A program made the position numbers and the translations under genes. 22,591 nt of DNA, taken from the IMG/VR virus record IMGVR_UViG_3300008055_000004, positions 1 through 22,591 of that record; one strand, written 5' to 3'. The notes beneath the pieces are model-generated. The model was not told the DNA's origin and did no database searches. It saw only the letters and a list, made by a program, of their open reading frames with translations. The DNA is from a virus. Position 1 is the first letter of the stretch. The number at the start of each line of letters is the position of its first letter. Below, piece by piece: positions 5,617 to 15,160 of this stretch.

Positions 5617-6264
5617 ATGACAACCGCAACAATCGACAAACCTAAACGACACATCTCTGCTATTACAGCAGAGTACCGCGCCTTCTGGCAACCCTTGTTT
5701 GACCACATGGGTCTCACCAATCCTCAGTTTGGTGCTAAGCTCTGCTACCTGGGCAGAGAGTTTTCTACTGACGGGTCCCGTGTACCTGGCATCAGGTTCT
5801 TTCCCAATGAACTCAACAACGGTGCAGACTACTACACTGAGTTGTTTGACTGGGATCAGAACCGCTTTGACCCTGCCAACCGGTCGCTGTACAGGCTCAA
5901 GCATGATCCAGACTGGCAGAGCAAATCTCACAAGTATATTGAGGCTGTTTCTGAAAAGCTCCCTACCAGCACGTATGCTGTGAGGCTTTCAGATTTTGAG
6001 CTGATCAACACCACGGACGCCAAAGCACTGACCCCTGAGCTCAAAAAACCAGTGGCTGCTGAAAAAGCACCTGAGTTGTTTTCAGAAATTGGCCTGGACC
6101 TGGAGTCACAAATGACTGAAATGTTCAGTGACAAAGAAGACAACCACTACTCGTCCATGACCATCAGGGATCTGTACTGCATGCTTCAGAACGTTCCTTT
6201 GAGCAACAAAAAATGGTTAAATCAACTCATTACATCTGGTAAACAATGGCGACAACTACCGTAA
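5617..6264 (+). CDS. hypothetical protein in the replication block
   Basis: A 215-residue protein, not recognised. The N-terminal two-thirds looks globular (aromatic-rich, with AEYRAFWQPLFDHMG and FFPNELNNGADYYTELFDW), followed by an acidic, proline-containing linker (about 135-165) and a C-terminal helical segment (MTIRDLYCMLQNVPLSNKKWL). This two-part layout with a linker is what an adaptor or helicase-loader protein might look like, but there is no motif to prove it. Its end overlaps the start of the RecA-like ATPase gene by 19 bases, so the two are probably translationally coupled and may act together. Confidence 0.75.
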   Translation: MTTATIDKPKRHISAITAEYRAFWQPLFDHMGLTNPQFGAKLCYLGREFSTDGSRVPGIRFFPNELNNGADYYTELFDWDQNRFDPANRSLYRLKHDPDWQSKSHKYIEAVSEKLPTSTYAVRLSDFELINTTDAKALTPELKKPVAAEKAPELFSEIGLDLESQMTEMFSDKEDNHYSSMTIRDLYCMLQNVPLSNKKWLNQLITSGKQWRQLP

Positions 6265-7016
6265 GCACAGGCATCGTCCTTCCCACAGGTGTGGTGAAGG
6301 CTATCACCAAAAGCCCCAAGAACCTGATCATCTTCTCAAAACCCAAGGTGGGTAAAACCACTTTGCTCTCCAAGCTTGAGAACTGTTTGATCATTGACCT
6401 GGAGAGTGGCACTGACTACATTGACGCAATGAAGATCAAAGCGTCCAACGTGACAGAACTCAGCAACATTGTGCGCGCCATTCAGGAAGCAGGAAAGCCC
6501 TACAAGTTCATTGCTGTAGACACCATCACTGCCCTGGAAGAAATGTGCATACCACTTGCAGAGTACAACTACTCCAAAAGCTCGATGGGTACCAACTGGT
6601 TCAAAGAAGGCGGTGGTAAACAAAAGTATGGGTCCATTCTCAACATGGCCAATGGTGCAGGCTATCCATGGCTTCGCCAGGCGTTTGAGACCATGGTCAG
6701 CATGCTCAAAGGACTTGCCCCGCATGTGATCCTGGTAGGACACATCAAAGACACCTTGCTGGAAAAGAACGGTGCAGAGTTCAACTCTCTGGATCTGGAT
6801 CTGACCGGCAAGCTCAAGCGCATCACCACCTCAAACGCTGATGCTATTGGCTATTTGTACCGCAAAGGCAACCAAAACATCTTGAGCTTCAAAACCTCTG
6901 ATGAAATTGCCTGTGGTGCCCGTCCAGAACATCTTCGCAACGCAGAGATCGTGCTCTCTGAGATACAGGAAGATGGCAGTGTAGTGACACACTGGGACAA
7001 GATTTTCATTGACTGA
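6246..7016 (+). CDS. RecA-fold ATPase, Sak4-like recombinase
   Basis: A 256-residue P-loop ATPase. Walker A is SKPKVGKTT at 31-39 (Ser in place of the first Gly), a short acidic strand follows (LIIDLESGTD), and Walker B is FIAVDTITALEE around Asp92. This is the layout of the phage 'AAA_24'/Sak4 group, single-domain RecA relatives that promote single-strand annealing together with a phage SSB. The gene directly downstream encodes an SSB-like protein, the usual partner arrangement. It overlaps the previous gene by 19 bases. The exact biochemical class (annealase or loader) cannot be settled from sequence. Confidence 0.82.
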   Translation: MATTTVSTGIVLPTGVVKAITKSPKNLIIFSKPKVGKTTLLSKLENCLIIDLESGTDYIDAMKIKASNVTELSNIVRAIQEAGKPYKFIAVDTITALEEMCIPLAEYNYSKSSMGTNWFKEGGGKQKYGSILNMANGAGYPWLRQAFETMVSMLKGLAPHVILVGHIKDTLLEKNGAEFNSLDLDLTGKLKRITTSNADAIGYLYRKGNQNILSFKTSDEIACGARPEHLRNAEIVLSEIQEDGSVVTHWDKIFID

Positions 7017-7048: not shown

Positions 7049-7804
7049 ATGTTTACATCCAAAAATTTCAACCCCAACGCAGGAGGCAGCTATCCTAAGA
7101 TCATGAACCCTGGTACCAACTATTGTCGCATTGTTGACATGAAACTGGACCGTCCACCTTACACTCCTGAAAAGGAGCCTTACTTTGTCGTGCTGACACT
7201 GGAAGGTGTGGATCTGGGCGATGACTTTCAGGGTATTGCCATTGACAAGAACGATCCTTCGCGTGGCAACTACCGCGGTCAGATCGCCAATGTGCGTTCA
7301 GGACGTTATCCTTTCACCACCTACACCTACAATGGCAACACCATTCAGCGTGACGACCAGATCTTCCGCTGGGTCAACAACCTGGCTAAGCAACTCGGTG
7401 TACTGGAGCAGATGAATGCTGACAACGTAGAGGCTAACACCATCGAGGAGTACGTCGAAGTGGTAAAGCGCTATGTGGTCAACCCAGAACTGTGGGCACA
7501 TCACACCATCGGTGGTCAGGAGTACTTCACAGAAGGGTACGACAAACCCAATTACCGCATGTTCTATCCAAAGCCTGAGGGTAAGCTGCTTCCTTTTGCA
7601 GCAATGGAAGATGAAAACGGTCAGCCTTTGAACCTGCTCAACTTTGATCGTGCCAAGCACATCGTGGTAAAAGCAGATGAAACTGCTGAGACAGTAACAG
7701 GGTTCCCAGGTCAGAACGGCACACCAATGCCAATGCCAAGCATCCCTCAGATGCCTATCATGCCACAGGGTAACACTGCTGTGGCTGACCTGCAGCTTCC
7801 CTAA
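7049..7804 (+). CDS. probable single-stranded DNA-binding protein
   Basis: A 251-residue protein preceded by an A-rich TTTAAAAAAC start context. The N-terminal part is strand-rich with aromatic and basic residues typical of an OB-fold surface (NYCRIVDMKLDRPPYT, YFVVLTLEGV, YPFTTYTYNGN). The last 35 residues form a flexible tail of Gly, Pro, Met and Gln (GTPMPMPSIPQMPIMPQ) ending in VADLQLP. An OB-like core plus a disordered tail with a short terminal tip is the SSB architecture, and the position after the Sak4-like ATPase is the usual one. I rely on layout and context rather than a family motif. A strong terminator follows. Confidence 0.6.
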   Translation: MFTSKNFNPNAGGSYPKIMNPGTNYCRIVDMKLDRPPYTPEKEPYFVVLTLEGVDLGDDFQGIAIDKNDPSRGNYRGQIANVRSGRYPFTTYTYNGNTIQRDDQIFRWVNNLAKQLGVLEQMNADNVEANTIEEYVEVVKRYVVNPELWAHHTIGGQEYFTEGYDKPNYRMFYPKPEGKLLPFAAMEDENGQPLNLLNFDRAKHIVVKADETAETVTGFPGQNGTPMPMPSIPQMPIMPQGNTAVADLQLP

Positions 7805-7880: not shown

Positions 7881-8891
7881 ATGTTTTCAAGCAAACACTT
7901 CATAGAAGATGTCAATCATGTTCCAGCAACCTGGATCTTTGAAAACTACCTGGGGCTGCCAGAACCTCTGACAGGTCAGCGGGTCCGCATCAACTCTTTG
8001 TTCAACCCCAACGACAAGACACCGTCTATGTACTTGTACTACAACAAAGACTCAGAATCCTACCGCTACAAATGCTTCTCCACCGGCAAGGGAGGCAGCG
8101 CGGTAGATCTGATGATGCACCTGTGGAATATGCCCTTCTTAGACGTTTCCAAAAAGATCATCACTGACTATGTGGCTTATCAACGCTCTGGTAAAATCTG
8201 TGAGACCAGGGTCATTGAATACTCACAATGGCAGGTAGCGCACTACAAAGTAAGACAGTGGAACACCCATGACGCGTCCTTCTGGGGCTCCTACAATATC
8301 TCCAGTGCGCTTTTGGAACAGCATCATGTAGTGCCCATTGAGCGCTACGTAATGCAGAAGAAAACCTCCAATAAGATTGACCAGGAGTTTGAAGTCGTCA
8401 GCAAGCATATCTACGGATACTTCACAGCTGAAGGCAAACTCTATAAGATCTACCAACCCAAGAACCGTGAGCGCAAGTTCATCAAGCTTTGTGATTACAC
8501 CCAAGGGTACGACCAGCTTGAGAACAAACCTTTCCTGGTCATTGCTTCCTCACTCAAAGACTGCCTTGCCATCAAAAGCATGAAGCTGAACTGCGATGTG
8601 ATAGCACCTGACAGTGAGAACACACTGCTCAGCGATGAGATGATGACCGAGTTCAAGCAAGTCTACCATGCCATTGTCACTGTTTTTGACAGCGACCAGG
8701 CAGGTATCCAGGCAATGCAGACCTACCAGAAAAGACATGGACTGCCTTTTGTCTACATTCCTTTGGAAAAAGACATTGCTGATGTGGTGAAGATCCATGG
8801 CATTCAAAGAGCCATGATAGAGTTTGTCCCCAGGCTGGATAGAGCGGTGGAGGCTTACTATGAACCTGTGCAGGAAGTTGGTAAGTTGTAG
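7881..8891 (+). CDS. DnaG-like primase with degenerate zinc finger and TOPRIM
   Basis: A 336-residue protein. A GTG in the same frame at 7833 lies inside the terminator stem, so ATG 7881 is chosen. The N-terminus aligns in layout with the CHC2 zinc finger of DnaG (FNPNDKTPSMYLYY, then YKCFSTGKGGSAVDL), but only Cys65 remains of the metal ligands, so zinc is probably not bound. The TOPRIM domain has the second motif intact (Asp270-Ser-Asp272-Gln-Ala-Gly), but the usual Glu-Gly of the first motif reads Ser-Ser (VIASSLKDCL, 220-229). It should make RNA primers for the phage polymerase; the missing Glu may be supplied elsewhere or indicate altered chemistry. Confidence 0.8.
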   Translation: MFSSKHFIEDVNHVPATWIFENYLGLPEPLTGQRVRINSLFNPNDKTPSMYLYYNKDSESYRYKCFSTGKGGSAVDLMMHLWNMPFLDVSKKIITDYVAYQRSGKICETRVIEYSQWQVAHYKVRQWNTHDASFWGSYNISSALLEQHHVVPIERYVMQKKTSNKIDQEFEVVSKHIYGYFTAEGKLYKIYQPKNRERKFIKLCDYTQGYDQLENKPFLVIASSLKDCLAIKSMKLNCDVIAPDSENTLLSDEMMTEFKQVYHAIVTVFDSDQAGIQAMQTYQKRHGLPFVYIPLEKDIADVVKIHGIQRAMIEFVPRLDRAVEAYYEPVQEVGKL

Positions 8892-8908
8892 AGATTTGGC
8901 TATTTTTG
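8878..8908 (+). promoter_or_regulatory. Bacteroidetes-type promoter for the GIY-YIG gene
   Basis: TTG at 8878-8880, 20-base spacer, and a perfect TATTTTTG -7 box at 8901-8908, followed by TAGAGC. The predicted transcription start is near 8913, so the ATG at 8929 would have a leader of only about 16 bases. The promoter overlaps the end of the primase gene. Confidence 0.65.
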
Positions 8909-8928
8909 TAGAGCTTACTTCAACCCCT

Positions 8929-9384
8929 ATGAACCACTGGACATACGCGCCCACCGACAAGGTCGTTCTGCAACTGGAAGACCTTCCCAACCACGACGAA
9001 GTTGTTGGTTTTGTTTACAAGATCACCAACCTGAAGACTGGTAAATTTTACATTGGCAAAAAAAGTCTTCACGCTACAAGGAAGACCAGACTATCCAAGA
9101 AAGAAAAAACAACAACAGGCACCAGAAAGATCTTTAAGCGTGTTGTCAAAGAGTCTGACTGGCTCACCTACCATGGTTCTTCAGCTGACCTGAAACATGA
9201 CGTAGGCAAACTTGGACCTGAATTTTTCAAAAGAGAAATCCTTGAGCTCTGCTGCACCAAAAAGTACCTGACCTATTGCGAGTTGTCCTATCAGATCAAG
9301 CACGATGTTCTGAAGTCTAACAGCTACAACGGCAACATCCTGGGCAGGTACTATGGCAGAGACATGGAGAACTGCAAATGCTAA
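8929..9384 (+). CDS. GIY-YIG endonuclease, Seg/homing-type
   Basis: A 151-residue GIY-YIG fold nuclease. The N-terminal motif pair is FVYKITN (28-34) and FYIG (40-43); Arg51 or Arg54 would be the catalytic arginine and Glu118 (YCELSYQ) the metal-binding glutamate. DWLTYHGSS and FFKREIL match phage Seg-like and group-I-intron-type nucleases. ATG 8929 is chosen because the promoter box at 8901 lies upstream and earlier codons overlap primase. It has its own promoter inside the replication block, as expected of a free-standing homing nuclease inserted as a moron, though it may also act in recombination. Confidence 0.82.
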   Translation: MNHWTYAPTDKVVLQLEDLPNHDEVVGFVYKITNLKTGKFYIGKKSLHATRKTRLSKKEKTTTGTRKIFKRVVKESDWLTYHGSSADLKHDVGKLGPEFFKREILELCCTKKYLTYCELSYQIKHDVLKSNSYNGNILGRYYGRDMENCKC

Positions 9385-9405: not shown

Positions 9406-10461
9406 ATGGCTACACCAAAGTTTATCGCCCCAAGCATCTCCTTTTCAGATCGTATGCAAAAGGAGGAGGAGTTTTTCTCCAAACCATTTTTACTGTCGTA
9501 TTCAGGACTGAACAGACTTTTGTACAGTCCTGCACTTTTCTACAACCACTACGTGCTAGGTCAGCGCGATGATGTTGAAGACCGCAACATGATTGAAGGC
9601 AAGCTGATACACTGCTTACTGCTCAATCCAGAAAACTTTGACAAAGAGTTTGTGCTCAGTGCGACAGACATTCCTTCTGACAATCCACGTCAGCTTTTGA
9701 ACACGCTGTTTGCACACTACAAAGAACTCAAAAAGCACGACCCTGAAGATACGCGTGAAGACCTGCACGAGTTCAACGGTGCAATCATTGATATTCTCAG
9801 TGACATGAACCTGTATCAGTCTTTAAAGACCGACACACAGCGTCTGGAAAAGATCATCACTGAGAAGCATGTCTCTTACTGGGACTACCTCAAAAAGTCA
9901 CAAAACCGCACCATCATTGACCATGATACCTACACGTTTGCAAACAGTGTAGTGGAAAAGATCAAGAACACACCTTCTGTCATTGATGTGATGGGCTTCT
10001 TTGAAGACCCGTTGCGTGGCATCACCAAGCAAAATGAAGTAGAGCTGGTAAAGTTTTCAGAGAAACACCCCTTTGGTATTCGTGGTTTTATTGACAATTT
10101 GGTGATTGACCCTTCCACAAAGACCATCAAGGTCAACGACCTGAAAAAGTCCAGCAAGGATATCAGCTCTTTTAAAGATTCTATTGAGTACTATCGTTAT
10201 TATTTACAAGCTGCGATCTATTACAGATTAGTAGAGGATGTTTACTTGAGCCGTCCTGAGTACAAGGACTTTACCATCACATTTCGTTTTGTAGTGGTAG
10301 ATCCTTACATGCAGATCGCACCCATTAGGGTGTCATCGCTTAAAATGCAGGAGTGGTTGGAAATCCTTGATCAAAAACTATTGCAGGCAGCCTATCACTT
10401 TGAGCAAAGAGAGTTTGACCTACCCTATGAGTTTTTGACCAATACTGAAGTTGTACTATGA
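9406..10461 (+). CDS. PD-(D/E)XK exonuclease, RecE/Cas4-like
   Basis: A 351-residue protein with the catalytic triad of the PD-(D/E)XK superfamily: Asp230 in GFIDNLVID, then Asp245-x-Lys247 in NDLKKS, and downstream YRYYLQAAIYYRLV as the QxxxY-type helix found in RecE, Cas4 and AddB nucleases. The N-terminal region with 'SYSGLNRLLYSP..FY..Y' and EGKLIHCLLL matches the DUF3799/RecE-like phage exonucleases, which chew one strand of linear DNA to expose ends for annealing. With the Sak4-like ATPase and the SSB-like protein this makes a standard phage recombination pair. It overlaps the next gene by an ATGA. Confidence 0.82.
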   Translation: MATPKFIAPSISFSDRMQKEEEFFSKPFLLSYSGLNRLLYSPALFYNHYVLGQRDDVEDRNMIEGKLIHCLLLNPENFDKEFVLSATDIPSDNPRQLLNTLFAHYKELKKHDPEDTREDLHEFNGAIIDILSDMNLYQSLKTDTQRLEKIITEKHVSYWDYLKKSQNRTIIDHDTYTFANSVVEKIKNTPSVIDVMGFFEDPLRGITKQNEVELVKFSEKHPFGIRGFIDNLVIDPSTKTIKVNDLKKSSKDISSFKDSIEYYRYYLQAAIYYRLVEDVYLSRPEYKDFTITFRFVVVDPYMQIAPIRVSSLKMQEWLEILDQKLLQAAYHFEQREFDLPYEFLTNTEVVL

Positions 10462-11048: not shown

Positions 11049-11444
11049 ATGACGCTTCCAAAGCACACCCAAAACATGTTCGTATACAGCACTGACTGGT
11101 ACGGACGTAAGTCTTTTCGCATGCTTCCAGCATCAGAAGACTGTCCTTTCAACGAGGTGATCTACGATCCCAACACCGGCGTGTTGGCAGTGATCAGCCG
11201 TGACAAAAAGGACAAGCCGCAGATGCTGCCCAAGCTTACAGAAAAAGGACAGGTGATCCCTCTCAAACCTGTAGCCAACGACACACAGCAGCGCTATGTG
11301 GAAGAACGCCGAATCCTGGAAACGTACTACGAGTACTACCTCGATGACAAGCAGGACATTCAAAACTTCATCAACATGTTTGCACTCAATGCTGATCATC
11401 CATCCATTGCGGTGATCAACGAAGAAAAACAAACACAAGCTTAA
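11049..11444 (+). CDS. hypothetical protein
   Basis: A 131-residue protein, not recognised. Mixed content with a strand-rich N-terminus (NMFVYSTDWYGRKSFRML, VLAVISRDKK) and a helical C-terminus (RYVEERRILETYYEYYLDD). The stop overlaps the polymerase start (TAATG), so it is translationally coupled to DNA polymerase and could be a polymerase-associated factor; that is only a context argument. Confidence 0.75.
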   Translation: MTLPKHTQNMFVYSTDWYGRKSFRMLPASEDCPFNEVIYDPNTGVLAVISRDKKDKPQMLPKLTEKGQVIPLKPVANDTQQRYVEERRILETYYEYYLDDKQDIQNFINMFALNADHPSIAVINEEKQTQA

Positions 11445-13426
11445 TGCAAAGACAGCGAAAGTTCTGGGTAATGGACTATGAGACCATTGTGAACTGCTTT
11501 GTCGCTGTGTTTACTGCTTATGACTCTGACGAGCAGCATGTCTTCGCTGTCAACCGTGACAGAAACGACATGCCTGCTTTTCTGAGCTTCCTGCAGCAAA
11601 ACATTCAGAGCAAAGACTGGCACTTTGGTTATAACAACCTGTCCTTTGATGCTCAGGTCACTGAGTACATCTTACAGAATGCAGCCTACTTTAATGGTAG
11701 AACTGCAGAAGAAATCACCACGACAATTTATCAGTACGCCCAACATGTCATTGGCAAGTCTGATCGCAAGGAGTTTCTTGATTATCCAGAATATAAGCTG
11801 AGCATTCCTTGTGTGGACATCTTCAAGCTGAACCATTGGGACAGTAACGCTAAACGTACTTCTCTGAAATGGGTCCAGTTCTCCATGGACTGGGACAGCG
11901 TTGAAGAAATGCCACATCCCCATTACAATCCTGTTGACACCAGCGAGGAGCTGGAGAGCGTCATCAAGTATTGTATCAACGACGTGCGCAGTACGCGCAA
12001 CATCTTCTTGATGAAAAACTCCAAGGGAGAGCAGGTCATGGCTTCGCAGATCAACCTGCGGGCTGAACTCAGCTCTACCTACAATCTCACCCTGTACAGT
12101 GCCTCAGAGCCCAGAATTAGCAAGGAGATGTTCTTGCACTTCTTAAGTGAAAAGCTGGGCAGGGATAAAAAAGAGATCAGGAACATGCGCACGGAGCGCT
12201 CTCACGTCACTGTGAGAGACATCATACTTCCCTATGTTCGCTTTTCTACCCCAGAGTTTACCAGTGTACACAACTGGTTTAAGTCTCTGGTGGTAGATAC
12301 AGCAATCATGGATGAAAGTGAGGAGACGCAAAAAGCAAAAGGTCCCAAGCACCGCGTCACCTTCAAAGGCGTTCCCACAGACTATGGTTTGGGTGGACTG
12401 CACGGTTGCGCTGCATCCGGTATCTACACTGTCACAAAAGGCAAGAAGATCCTGTCTGCAGATGTCACAAGTTTTTACCCCAACTTGGCGATAAAAAACC
12501 AGTGGGCACCTGCTCATATCCCCAAGGGGGATTTCTGTGAACTGTACGAGTGGTTCTTTGAAGAACGCAAAAAGTACCCCAAGTCTTCACCACTCAACTA
12601 CCTGTTCAAGATTATCTTGAACTCCACCTACGGCCTAAGCAAGAACAAGTATTCGTTCCTGTATGACCCTGAGTTTACTTTCAGGATCACCATCAACGGA
12701 CAGCTTCTGCTCTCCATGCTCTATGAGATGATTGCTACCAGGATCCCTGGCGCGCAGCCTTTGATGCAGAACACCGACGGTCTGGAGTTTTTGATAGATG
12801 AAGAACATGAAGTATTGTTCTACCAGATCTGTAAAGAATGGGAGACTTTGACACAGCTTCAGCTGGAAACAGTGGAGTACCAGAAGATGATCATTGGTGA
12901 TGTGAACAACTACATTGCCATTGACACTGCAGGTAAGACCAAGTGTAAAGGCAGGTTTGAGTTTGAAGAACTGCCGCTGCACAAAAACAAAAGCATGCTG
13001 ATCATCCCCAAGGCATGGTACGCCTACTTTGTGCATGGCAAAGACCCCGCAGAGTTCTTGCAAGAGAACCGCAACATTTATGACTACTGTGCCGGTGCCA
13101 AACTCAGAGGTGACTGGTACTTTGAAAAACACAGCATTGACAATTTAGAGTTCTCAAAAACAAGGTTACAAAAACTGGTGCGCTACTACATCTCTAACAA
13201 AGGATGTAAGATCATCAAGTGCAATCCTGATGGCAGAGAAATTCAACTGGAAAGTGGCAGATCTCTTCAGACTATTTTCAACAAACATGAGCACAAGCCC
13301 TGGTCTGAGTATGATGTCAATGAGACATTCTACCTGGACAAGATCTATGAAGAGATCAAGAAGATTGAGAAGTCGTCTTCTGTGCTACCTAAAATTCATC
13401 AAAACATCCAACTCTCATTTTTTTAA
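11444..13426 (+). CDS. compact family B DNA polymerase with 3'-5' exonuclease
   Basis: A 660-residue replicative polymerase. The exonuclease domain has Exo I Asp11-Tyr-Glu13 (MDYET), Exo II GYNNLSFD and Exo III YCIND. The palm has motif A SADVTSFYPNLAI (Asp near 340), motif B KIILNSTYGLS (about 388-398) and motif C QNTDG (about 442-446), where the usual Asp-Thr-Asp has become Asn-Thr-Asp while the second, metal-binding Asp is kept. It is short for family B, with little thumb between motif A and motif B and no obvious terminal-protein insertions. It proofreads and copies the phage genome using dNTPs from the nucleotide genes of this window. Confidence 0.92.
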   Translation: MQRQRKFWVMDYETIVNCFVAVFTAYDSDEQHVFAVNRDRNDMPAFLSFLQQNIQSKDWHFGYNNLSFDAQVTEYILQNAAYFNGRTAEEITTTIYQYAQHVIGKSDRKEFLDYPEYKLSIPCVDIFKLNHWDSNAKRTSLKWVQFSMDWDSVEEMPHPHYNPVDTSEELESVIKYCINDVRSTRNIFLMKNSKGEQVMASQINLRAELSSTYNLTLYSASEPRISKEMFLHFLSEKLGRDKKEIRNMRTERSHVTVRDIILPYVRFSTPEFTSVHNWFKSLVVDTAIMDESEETQKAKGPKHRVTFKGVPTDYGLGGLHGCAASGIYTVTKGKKILSADVTSFYPNLAIKNQWAPAHIPKGDFCELYEWFFEERKKYPKSSPLNYLFKIILNSTYGLSKNKYSFLYDPEFTFRITINGQLLLSMLYEMIATRIPGAQPLMQNTDGLEFLIDEEHEVLFYQICKEWETLTQLQLETVEYQKMIIGDVNNYIAIDTAGKTKCKGRFEFEELPLHKNKSMLIIPKAWYAYFVHGKDPAEFLQENRNIYDYCAGAKLRGDWYFEKHSIDNLEFSKTRLQKLVRYYISNKGCKIIKCNPDGREIQLESGRSLQTIFNKHEHKPWSEYDVNETFYLDKIYEEIKKIEKSSSVLPKIHQNIQLSFF

Positions 13427-13428
13427 TT

Positions 13429-14238
13429 ATGAAAAGAACCATTAGCGGCATGATGGCGTACTCCAAGATGATTGGATCAGCGCTGCCTGCAAAAACTGAC
13501 ACCTACACACCCATTGCTCACACTGCAGTTATCAACCGTGTGAGAAGTGAGATCACATCCTCTGGCTACATCATCACCGGTGAAGAGTACCGCGCCACCA
13601 ACGACGGTCAGGTGGCCGTTGGTACATTTCGCATGAACTACAAAGCTGACCCAGACATTGAGCTGAGTGCAAATTTTCTGAACTCATATAACAAACAGTA
13701 TGCGTTTCGCTTCAGCCTGGGCGGTCTTGTCAAAGTGTGCAACAACGGTATGATGCTGTCAAACAGCAAGTTTGGCGCCTACAAGCGCATGCACAAAGGC
13801 TCTGCAGATATACTAGCAGAAGGTAAGATCGCTGAGTTCATTGGTGACTCAGAACATTACTGGAGCACGCTTGTACAGCACAAAGACAAACTCAAAGATG
13901 AGTTGTTGACCACCACCGCCCAGCATGACATTCTGGGTGAGCTCTTCTTTCAGAAGAAGATCTTAAACACCATGCAGCTCAACACCATTCGTTCAGAAAT
14001 GCTGCGTCCCAGCTTTGACTACAAAGTGGACAGGGATTCTGCGTGGGCGTTATACAACCACATCACCATTGCCCTGAAAGACTCTCACCCTTCTGATTGG
14101 ATGAACCACCAGACACAGGTGCACGAGCTCTTTGAAAGGATGCTTGACCTGGAAGACAGCACCGAAGTAGAACCTGTGGTAGAACCTATGGTAGAAGCGG
14201 AAGCTATGAGTTCTGAACTGATAGAGCTTCCTTTTTAA
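13429..14238 (+). CDS. DUF932-like protein with SSB-like acidic C-terminal tip
   Basis: A 269-residue protein. The central block NSYNKQYAFRFSLGGLVKVC (about 85-104), with VAVGTFRMN before it and NNGMMLSN after it, resembles the DUF932 phage/plasmid family ('NSYD.S....L.AG..V.VC.N'), whose function is unsettled. The last 30 residues are acidic (EVEPVVEPMVEAEAMSSE) and end in ELIELPF, which recalls the DDDIPF tip by which SSB proteins recruit partners. It starts two bases after the polymerase stop and is followed by a terminator, so it closes the replication transcript. A role in DNA handling at the fork is inferred. Confidence 0.65.
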   Translation: MKRTISGMMAYSKMIGSALPAKTDTYTPIAHTAVINRVRSEITSSGYIITGEEYRATNDGQVAVGTFRMNYKADPDIELSANFLNSYNKQYAFRFSLGGLVKVCNNGMMLSNSKFGAYKRMHKGSADILAEGKIAEFIGDSEHYWSTLVQHKDKLKDELLTTTAQHDILGELFFQKKILNTMQLNTIRSEMLRPSFDYKVDRDSAWALYNHITIALKDSHPSDWMNHQTQVHELFERMLDLEDSTEVEPVVEPMVEAEAMSSELIELPF

Positions 14239-14252
14239 GTCCACAAACAAAT

Positions 14253-14286
14253 AAAAAGAGAGGCATTGCGTCCTCTCTTTTTTTTT
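14253..14286 (+). terminator. rho-independent terminator after the DUF932-like gene
   Basis: Stem AAAAAGAGAGG / CCTCTCTTTTT (11 bp) with an eight-base loop, followed by more T. It closes the long replication block. Confidence 0.85.
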
Positions 14287-14306
14287 GTTTTTAAATCCTC
14301 AGACCT

Positions 14307-14474
14307 ATGCGACCTAAAGACCTTATTGAAGAAGCTTACCGCAAGCTTCGCAACAAGCAGACGCGCATCAACAAGTTTTATATACTAAAACGTTACCTGC
14401 GCATGAAGTACAGGCTAGAGATATCCAAGTCCTGTTTATATAACAGAATCAAAACTTATTTAAAAACATCATGA
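14307..14474 (+). CDS. small, strongly basic protein (55 aa)
   Basis: A 55-residue open frame from ATG 14307 to TGA 14472-14474, below usual length cut-offs. It is rich in Lys and Arg and in Tyr (KDLIEEAYRKLRNKQTRINK, then KRYLRMKYRLEISK) with a helical, nucleic-acid-binding look, but no family is recognisable. It fills the space between a terminator and the kinase gene, and its stop overlaps the kinase ATG as ATGA, which is strong support for it being translated and coupled to the kinase. Confidence 0.6.
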   Translation: MRPKDLIEEAYRKLRNKQTRINKFYILKRYLRMKYRLEISKSCLYNRIKTYLKTS

Positions 14475-15160
14475 AAACACCTGTAAATCTTATTGGCATC
14501 TCTGGCAAAATAGGTTCTGGCAAAGATACTGTTGCCCAGATCATCCAGATACTTACATCATATCCATATTTTTTTGATAATGAAACAATTGTGCACTTTT
14601 TGCAATCTGAACCTAAACATGAAATCTTTAAAGATTGCGATACATGGAAAATTAAAAAGTTTGCAGGTGTACTTAAAAAAATAGCTTCAATATTGACTGG
14701 TATTCCAGTAAAAATGTTTGAAAGTCAAGAATTTAAAAAGACAGATCTTGGTCCTGAATGGGCTTATTTTCATCCTGAACATTGTTGGGACGATGATTCA
14801 CCCGTGTACACACGTATGTCTGTAAGACAATTTTTGCAAAAACTTGGTACAGAAGCTATGCGCGACGGTCTTCACCAAGACACTTGGGTAAACGCAACCT
14901 TTGCCAAATACAAACCAGATGTTGACAAATGGATCGTCACTGACACACGTTTTCCTAATGAAGCAGTGTCTATACAAGAACGCGGTGGTGTATTGCTTCG
15001 TATCAACCGCAATACAGACACTGGCGATCACCCTTCTGAAACTGCACTGGATGATTACAAGTTTGACTATATAATAGAGAACGATGGTGATCTTGTGAGT
15101 CTTGTAGAAAAAGTGAAAGTATTTTGTGAGACTTGCAAAATTATTAAACCCATAAAATGA
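14471..15160 (+). CDS. deoxynucleoside monophosphate kinase
   Basis: A 229-residue P-loop kinase. Walker A is GKIGSGKDT at 12-20, and a downstream stretch TRMSVRQFLQKLGTEAMR is the substrate-side helix typical of phage dNMP kinases (T4 gene 1 family); TDTRFPNEA follows as the LID-side Arg segment. It phosphorylates dNMPs (for T4, dTMP, dGMP and hydroxymethyl-dCMP) to diphosphates so that precursors from host DNA breakdown and ThyX reach dNTP level. It is more AT-rich than the replication genes, suggesting separate acquisition. It overlaps the previous stop and the next start by ATGA. Confidence 0.85.
   Translation: MKTPVNLIGISGKIGSGKDTVAQIIQILTSYPYFFDNETIVHFLQSEPKHEIFKDCDTWKIKKFAGVLKKIASILTGIPVKMFESQEFKKTDLGPEWAYFHPEHCWDDDSPVYTRMSVRQFLQKLGTEAMRDGLHQDTWVNATFAKYKPDVDKWIVTDTRFPNEAVSIQERGGVLLRINRNTDTGDHPSETALDDYKFDYIIENDGDLVSLVEKVKVFCETCKIIKPIK

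Follow-up and report, generated by a model that had tools for sequence, protein, structure and literature searches.

In a crAss-like phage lineage, the gene directly behind that for the DNA polymerase encodes a DUF932-family protein that ends in an acidic, predicted disordered tail; among its near relatives this tail changes fast and stays acidic, while its last residue remains phenylalanine. Judged by sequence, the likeness of this end to the C-terminal tip of bacterial single-stranded DNA binding proteins (SSBs) suggests that the DUF932 protein plugs into SSB partner proteins in phage replication and recombination. Our preferred reading makes the protein an accessory of the recombination/replication module, coupled to the polymerase and equipped with an SSB-type docking tip, and we hold it tentatively, at a little short of an even chance; that the tip docks, on which partner and with what effect, we infer. 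DUF932 is a widespread family, for which TIGR03299 is presumably the phage/plasmid-like name. Literature searches on DUF932, TIGR03299, PF06067 and YfjQ, including the accessible part of PMC9025141, found no functional study.

The DUF932 gene and its replication block

The window, by which we mean the whole stretch of DNA analysed, is a 22.6-kb virus record carrying a replication block: helicases, a DnaB-like protein, a Sak4-like protein, a putative SSB, a primase, an exonuclease VIII-like nuclease, the polymerase and, named by eye, a uracil-DNA glycosylase-like gene. The argument draws on the following features.

6246-7016, + strand: Sak4-like ssDNA annealing protein (phrog_124, E 1.2e-28; AAA_24, E 5.4e-25), adjoining the putative SSB
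7049-7804, + strand: putative phage SSB, assigned from its position by Sak4 and its tail shape, without a family match
9406-10461, + strand: RecE/exonuclease VIII-like nuclease (phrog_412, E 4.4e-22; DUF3799/PDDEXK)
11444-13426, + strand: DNA polymerase (PHROG match, phrog_1252), directly upstream of the DUF932 gene
13409-13423, + strand: QLSFF, C-terminal beta-clamp-type motif of the polymerase (from sequence; consensus in the accessible part of PMC11139829)
13429-14238, + strand: DUF932 protein gene, 269 aa (ORF, Pfam DUF932, IMG/VR relatives)
13429-14151, + strand: conserved core, residues 1-241 (alignment, invariant columns ending at L241; pLDDT mostly 80-98 in model 2)
14152-14235, + strand: acidic disordered tail, residues 242-269, varying in length and sequence among relatives (alignment, charge, pLDDT)
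14215-14235, + strand: ELIELPF, the SSB-style tip that closes the protein (from sequence; Phe kept in near proteins)
14253-14287, + strand: terminator-like hairpin and T run, 3′ of the DUF932 gene (by eye)

The preliminary description had placed a DUF932-like gene at 13429-14238, directly following the polymerase, and both points stand. The ORF runs from an ATG at 13429 to a stop at 14236-14238, and its product matches DUF932 (PF06067) at 40.1 bits against a cut-off of 23 (E 4.6e-10), the domain spanning residues 23-216. Two bases separate the polymerase stop from the DUF932 start, and the two genes adjoin in 40 of 40 distinct relatives, with gaps of -4 to +11 bases. Other near loci have hairpin-like repeats resembling the window's, also past the DUF932 stop.

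The core is highly conserved (mean column identity 77% in a 21-row alignment) and near neutral, with a net charge of +1 over the first 240 residues. The protein matches phrog 1221 (E 1.6e-5), a family without an assigned function, and a Pfam scan at E up to 1 gave DUF932 only, with no OB-fold SSB domain (PF00436). Two AlphaFold models (pLDDT 75.2 and 82.4) retrieved nothing from the PDB with Foldseek at E up to 0.001, the best VIA-align Z scores were 6.2 and 5.9, under that program's noise guide, and a PDB sequence search gave nothing at E under 0.39. Matches in BFVD were chiefly to other DUF932 or uncharacterised phage proteins. RAD52 and ERF rows in the fold searches were weak, none with a probability over 0.25; like the T4 MotA rows, they give no basis for a fold assignment. 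With no fold match in the PDB, the core thus gives no independent sign of DNA binding.

On a related contig of 123,730 bases there are crAss-like genes for terminase, portal and major head protein, and the terminase of this contig matches 136 phage records, with Bacteroidota as the named hosts among the matches listed; from these two facts we infer that the host of the window's phage belongs to the Bacteroidota. Scans of bacterial genome contigs for a host found no relative. The main text of the crAss-like survey PMC7886860 has no mention of SSB, clamp or DUF932, and the text searched of PMC11348598 has none of clamp or DUF932.

Two further genes of the window deserve mention. Past the primase, a small gene at 8824-9384 has a GIY-YIG-like start (by eye) and is kept in 26 loci. 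At 14471-15160, near relatives (e.g. L092:3676-4350) keep an acidic end in ...PPHTEGFF, in place of which the window copy has KIIKPIK; the tail of those relatives is possibly another docking tail.

The acidic tail and its terminal phenylalanine

The window protein ends in SSELIELPF. The acidic tail ending in ELIELPF that was picked out at the start is borne out: the last 29 residues carry a net charge of -9 (only two of the last seven residues being acidic), and pLDDT falls under 50 at residues 244-269 in model 1 and 248-261 in model 2, as expected for disorder. Relatives came from IMG/VR, at 30 loci by protein search and 63 by alignment search; a named-phage collection searched with the DUF932 protein gave no match.

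The near group comprises 18 distinct proteins, the window's included, which we selected as the near rows; all share at least 72% identity with the window's protein, and together they carry 16 distinct 24-residue tails. All 18 end in Phe. On the core tree the last column has 0 changes, against 3-10 for each of columns -2 to -20. Proline occupies column -2 in 11 of the 16 tails, with I, L, S or T in the other 5, and 11 tails have E at column -5.

Across the clade, a set of 40 distinct members, 25 end in F and 15 do not; the family therefore does not depend on the tip. Sixteen of the 40 end in PF, Pro being absent before Phe in 9 of the 25 F-ended rows, and all 25 have at least two acidic residues among the 11 preceding the Phe. 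The last column of the 40-row tree has 10 changes versus 14-24 for columns -2 to -12, which is still the lowest, and the label F/no-F changes five times. For distant DUF932 proteins we collected 80 loci, two of them cut open, and a terminal Phe was found in 1 of the 78 complete ORFs; it was found in none of 14 distant loci from the alignment search, several of which are contigs already counted. Set beside the 25 of 40 in the clade, this count places the tip with the crAss-like group rather than with DUF932. The preliminary description had counted a tail not conserved in relatives among the outcomes against it. In the near group this outcome did not arise, the terminal Phe being kept in all 18 while the rest of the tail turns over; the Phe is missing from 15 of the 40 clade members and from 77 of the 78 distant ORFs. 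Its further claim, that the end is close in character to an SSB tip, fares similarly. Three Bacteroidota SSBs end in ADDLPF, ADDLPF and TDDLPF and share their last three residues, LPF, with the IELPF of the window, but the Pro is replaced in 5 of the 16 near tails. The suggestion in the preliminary description that the protein binds host or phage partners of SSB is partly supported by these findings.

Proposed docking and its alternatives

On our preferred reading, the DUF932 protein would serve as an accessory within the phage's replication/recombination module and be translated jointly with the polymerase. The DUF932 core would perform DNA work, and the disordered acidic tail, with its hydrophobic-Pro-Phe tip, would reach out like an SSB tip and dock into a pocket that normally reads such tips, either bringing the polymerase-associated DUF932 protein to a partner or vying with SSB for access to it. 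Host proteins of the PriA, RecO and RecQ type bind SSB tips (DDLPF in Bacteroidota), and these would be the likeliest readers, with the phage's Sak4 second. If the tip does bind host SSB readers, the phage would be using the host's SSB network via a non-SSB protein. A tip that is kept yet easily deleted, in annealing-protein and exonuclease surroundings, gives the DUF932 family a testable role.

A less likely alternative is that the tip has its partner among the phage's own proteins (Sak4, primase, helicase or polymerase) or folds onto the DUF932 core in an autoinhibitory manner, the likeness to host SSBs then reflecting convergence. Acidic tails of SSB and T4 gp32 have been proposed to act as autoinhibitory tails, and in model 2 residues 262-269 lie outside the segment with pLDDT under 50, although this hint of self-docking is weak and absent from model 1. 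Loose tips among the relatives (STFPF, LSTF, IPIF) suggest a pocket co-evolving with the phage. The putative SSB, moreover, has D[LI][DE]LPF where the DUF932 protein is mostly without Phe, which may point to a pocket of the phage's own that accepts tips of this kind; this contrast, however, depends on a single change of state in the SSB.

The SSB assignment itself is putative: the 7049-7804 protein has no Pfam, PHROG or PDB match supporting it and no phage tblastn match, and PF00436 was found in 0 of 10 related records. It ends in DLQLP in the window and in D[LI][DE]LPF in the sister clade. Among 54 distinct complete proteins, all have [LI]xL near the C-terminus and 16 have a P-F or P-W tip near the end, mostly not at the very end (LPFG, LPFSSK), unlike the classical tip. 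Where all three proteins could be read (8 of the 40 rows lack a readable SSB), the DUF932 tip occurs without the SSB tip in 18 rows, the SSB tip without the DUF932 tip in 9, both in 3 and neither in 2. Since the SSB state changes only once on the tree, the contrast has no statistical force, and independent pairs offer no test of an exchange; as a strict law we rejected it, given the 3 rows with both, the 2 with neither and the one SSB change. That the SSB's P-F tip occurs mainly where DUF932 has none is a lead only. In the sister clade the putative SSB keeps its tip and DUF932 mostly lacks Phe; here the SSB ends in LxLP with no Phe and DUF932 bears the tip. It is quite unlikely, in our estimate, that this crAss-like lineage has shifted its recruiting tip from the SSB of the phage onto DUF932, the protein coupled to the polymerase; had it done so, DUF932 would be a hub calling recombination and restart proteins to the phage fork.

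In three loci (L225, L232 and L252) the DUF932 protein ends in IDELP or IDVLP, its stop overlapping the next start, and the SSB ends in SELDLPFE; these loci may mirror the arrangement seen in the window.

We think it improbable that the terminal Phe is a by-product, through drift or a DNA-level feature (TTTTTAA), with no docking function. Phenylalanine ends are not rare in these genomes (15 of 119 non-overlapping ORFs of at least 100 aa, counted over the window and 120 kb from a single relative), and just the two DUF932 ORFs among those 15 end in PF. The last codon is TTT in all 18 near genes, but TTT also makes up 177 of their 243 Phe codons, so codon choice cannot separate protein-level from DNA-level constraint there. 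Against a by-product stand the unchanged last column beside its changing neighbours, the use of TTC (3) alongside TTT (4) in those 7 F-ended rows that do not belong to the near group, and the finding that DUF932 genes lacking the tip have no T run in common.

The neighboring polymerase offers a further candidate, a sliding-clamp (DnaN) binding motif, the clamp being the chief alternative target on which tips of this type dock. Scored as Q-phi-x-[LM]-(x)-[FL], the consensus given in the accessible part of PMC11139829, the motif is matched by 35 of 40 polymerase C-termini strictly and by 40 of 40 with QL[ST]FF allowed, the window's QLSFF being one of the five that require the relaxed form; the ends among relatives are QLSLF, QLTLF, QL[ST]FF, QLKLEL and QLTL[DE]L. 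A phage-encoded bacterial-type clamp domain was found in 0 of 10 related records (107-126 kb), so the polymerase motif would need the host's clamp, which the polymerase probably borrows. The DUF932 tip likewise is C-terminal, hydrophobic and Phe-ended, as in QL[SD]LF, in the same pair of genes and at the same position, and some tips (EVSIF, EIPIF, EMPLF) resemble the motif. None of the 40 DUF932 tails matches it, however, or has the Gln at position 1. According to the same part of PMC11139829 this Gln is not absolutely required, but changing it to Glu in a consensus peptide greatly lowers clamp binding, and Glu is what 11 of the 16 near tails have there. Clamp docking by the DUF932 tip is thus disfavoured by the 0 of 40, and we consider it very improbable.

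Comparison with known systems

With other DUF932 proteins the window's protein shares its core domain and a recombination-module setting, whereas the acidic tail and Phe tip are missing from nearly all other members seen. An Erf- or Sak-like ORF lies inside the fetched flank in 37 of the 80 distant loci, a count that includes many near-copies and in which each of the two query families also matches loci of the other. PHROG scans of 20 chosen neighbor proteins at 13 hand-picked distant loci gave replication or recombination neighbors in 6 (exonuclease and helicase at L139, helicase at L160 and L145, primase at L154, Sak at L103 and Erf at L111), and unrelated or no matches in the other 7. Salinibacter phage M8CRM-1 has the order DUF932 (gp54), RecE-like exonuclease, hypothetical protein, SSB and ERF; there the SSB ends in DDELPW and DUF932 has no tip. 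A recombination or replication role for the core is supported by this context, not by structure.

The bacterial SSB tip, MDFDDDIPF in E. coli (accessible part of PMC7913777) and DDLPF in Bacteroidota, has in common with the DUF932 tip a disordered acidic tail and a terminal Phe, often with the Pro before it; that Pro is not always kept in DUF932, and the DUF932 tip is less acidic and sits on a protein without an OB-fold match. Literature searches on DDLPF and on Bacteroides SSB tips yielded no usable information, and a narrow one found no non-SSB protein with an SSB-like tip. The closest parallel within a phage module is HK620, where, according to the accessible part of PMC5928155, the SSB tip NDYPPF is required for Sak4 binding. 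Whereas in HK620 a true SSB adjoining sak4 bears the tip, and here a DUF932 protein several genes off bears it, in both cases a tip protein and a Sak4-like gene belong to one phage module.
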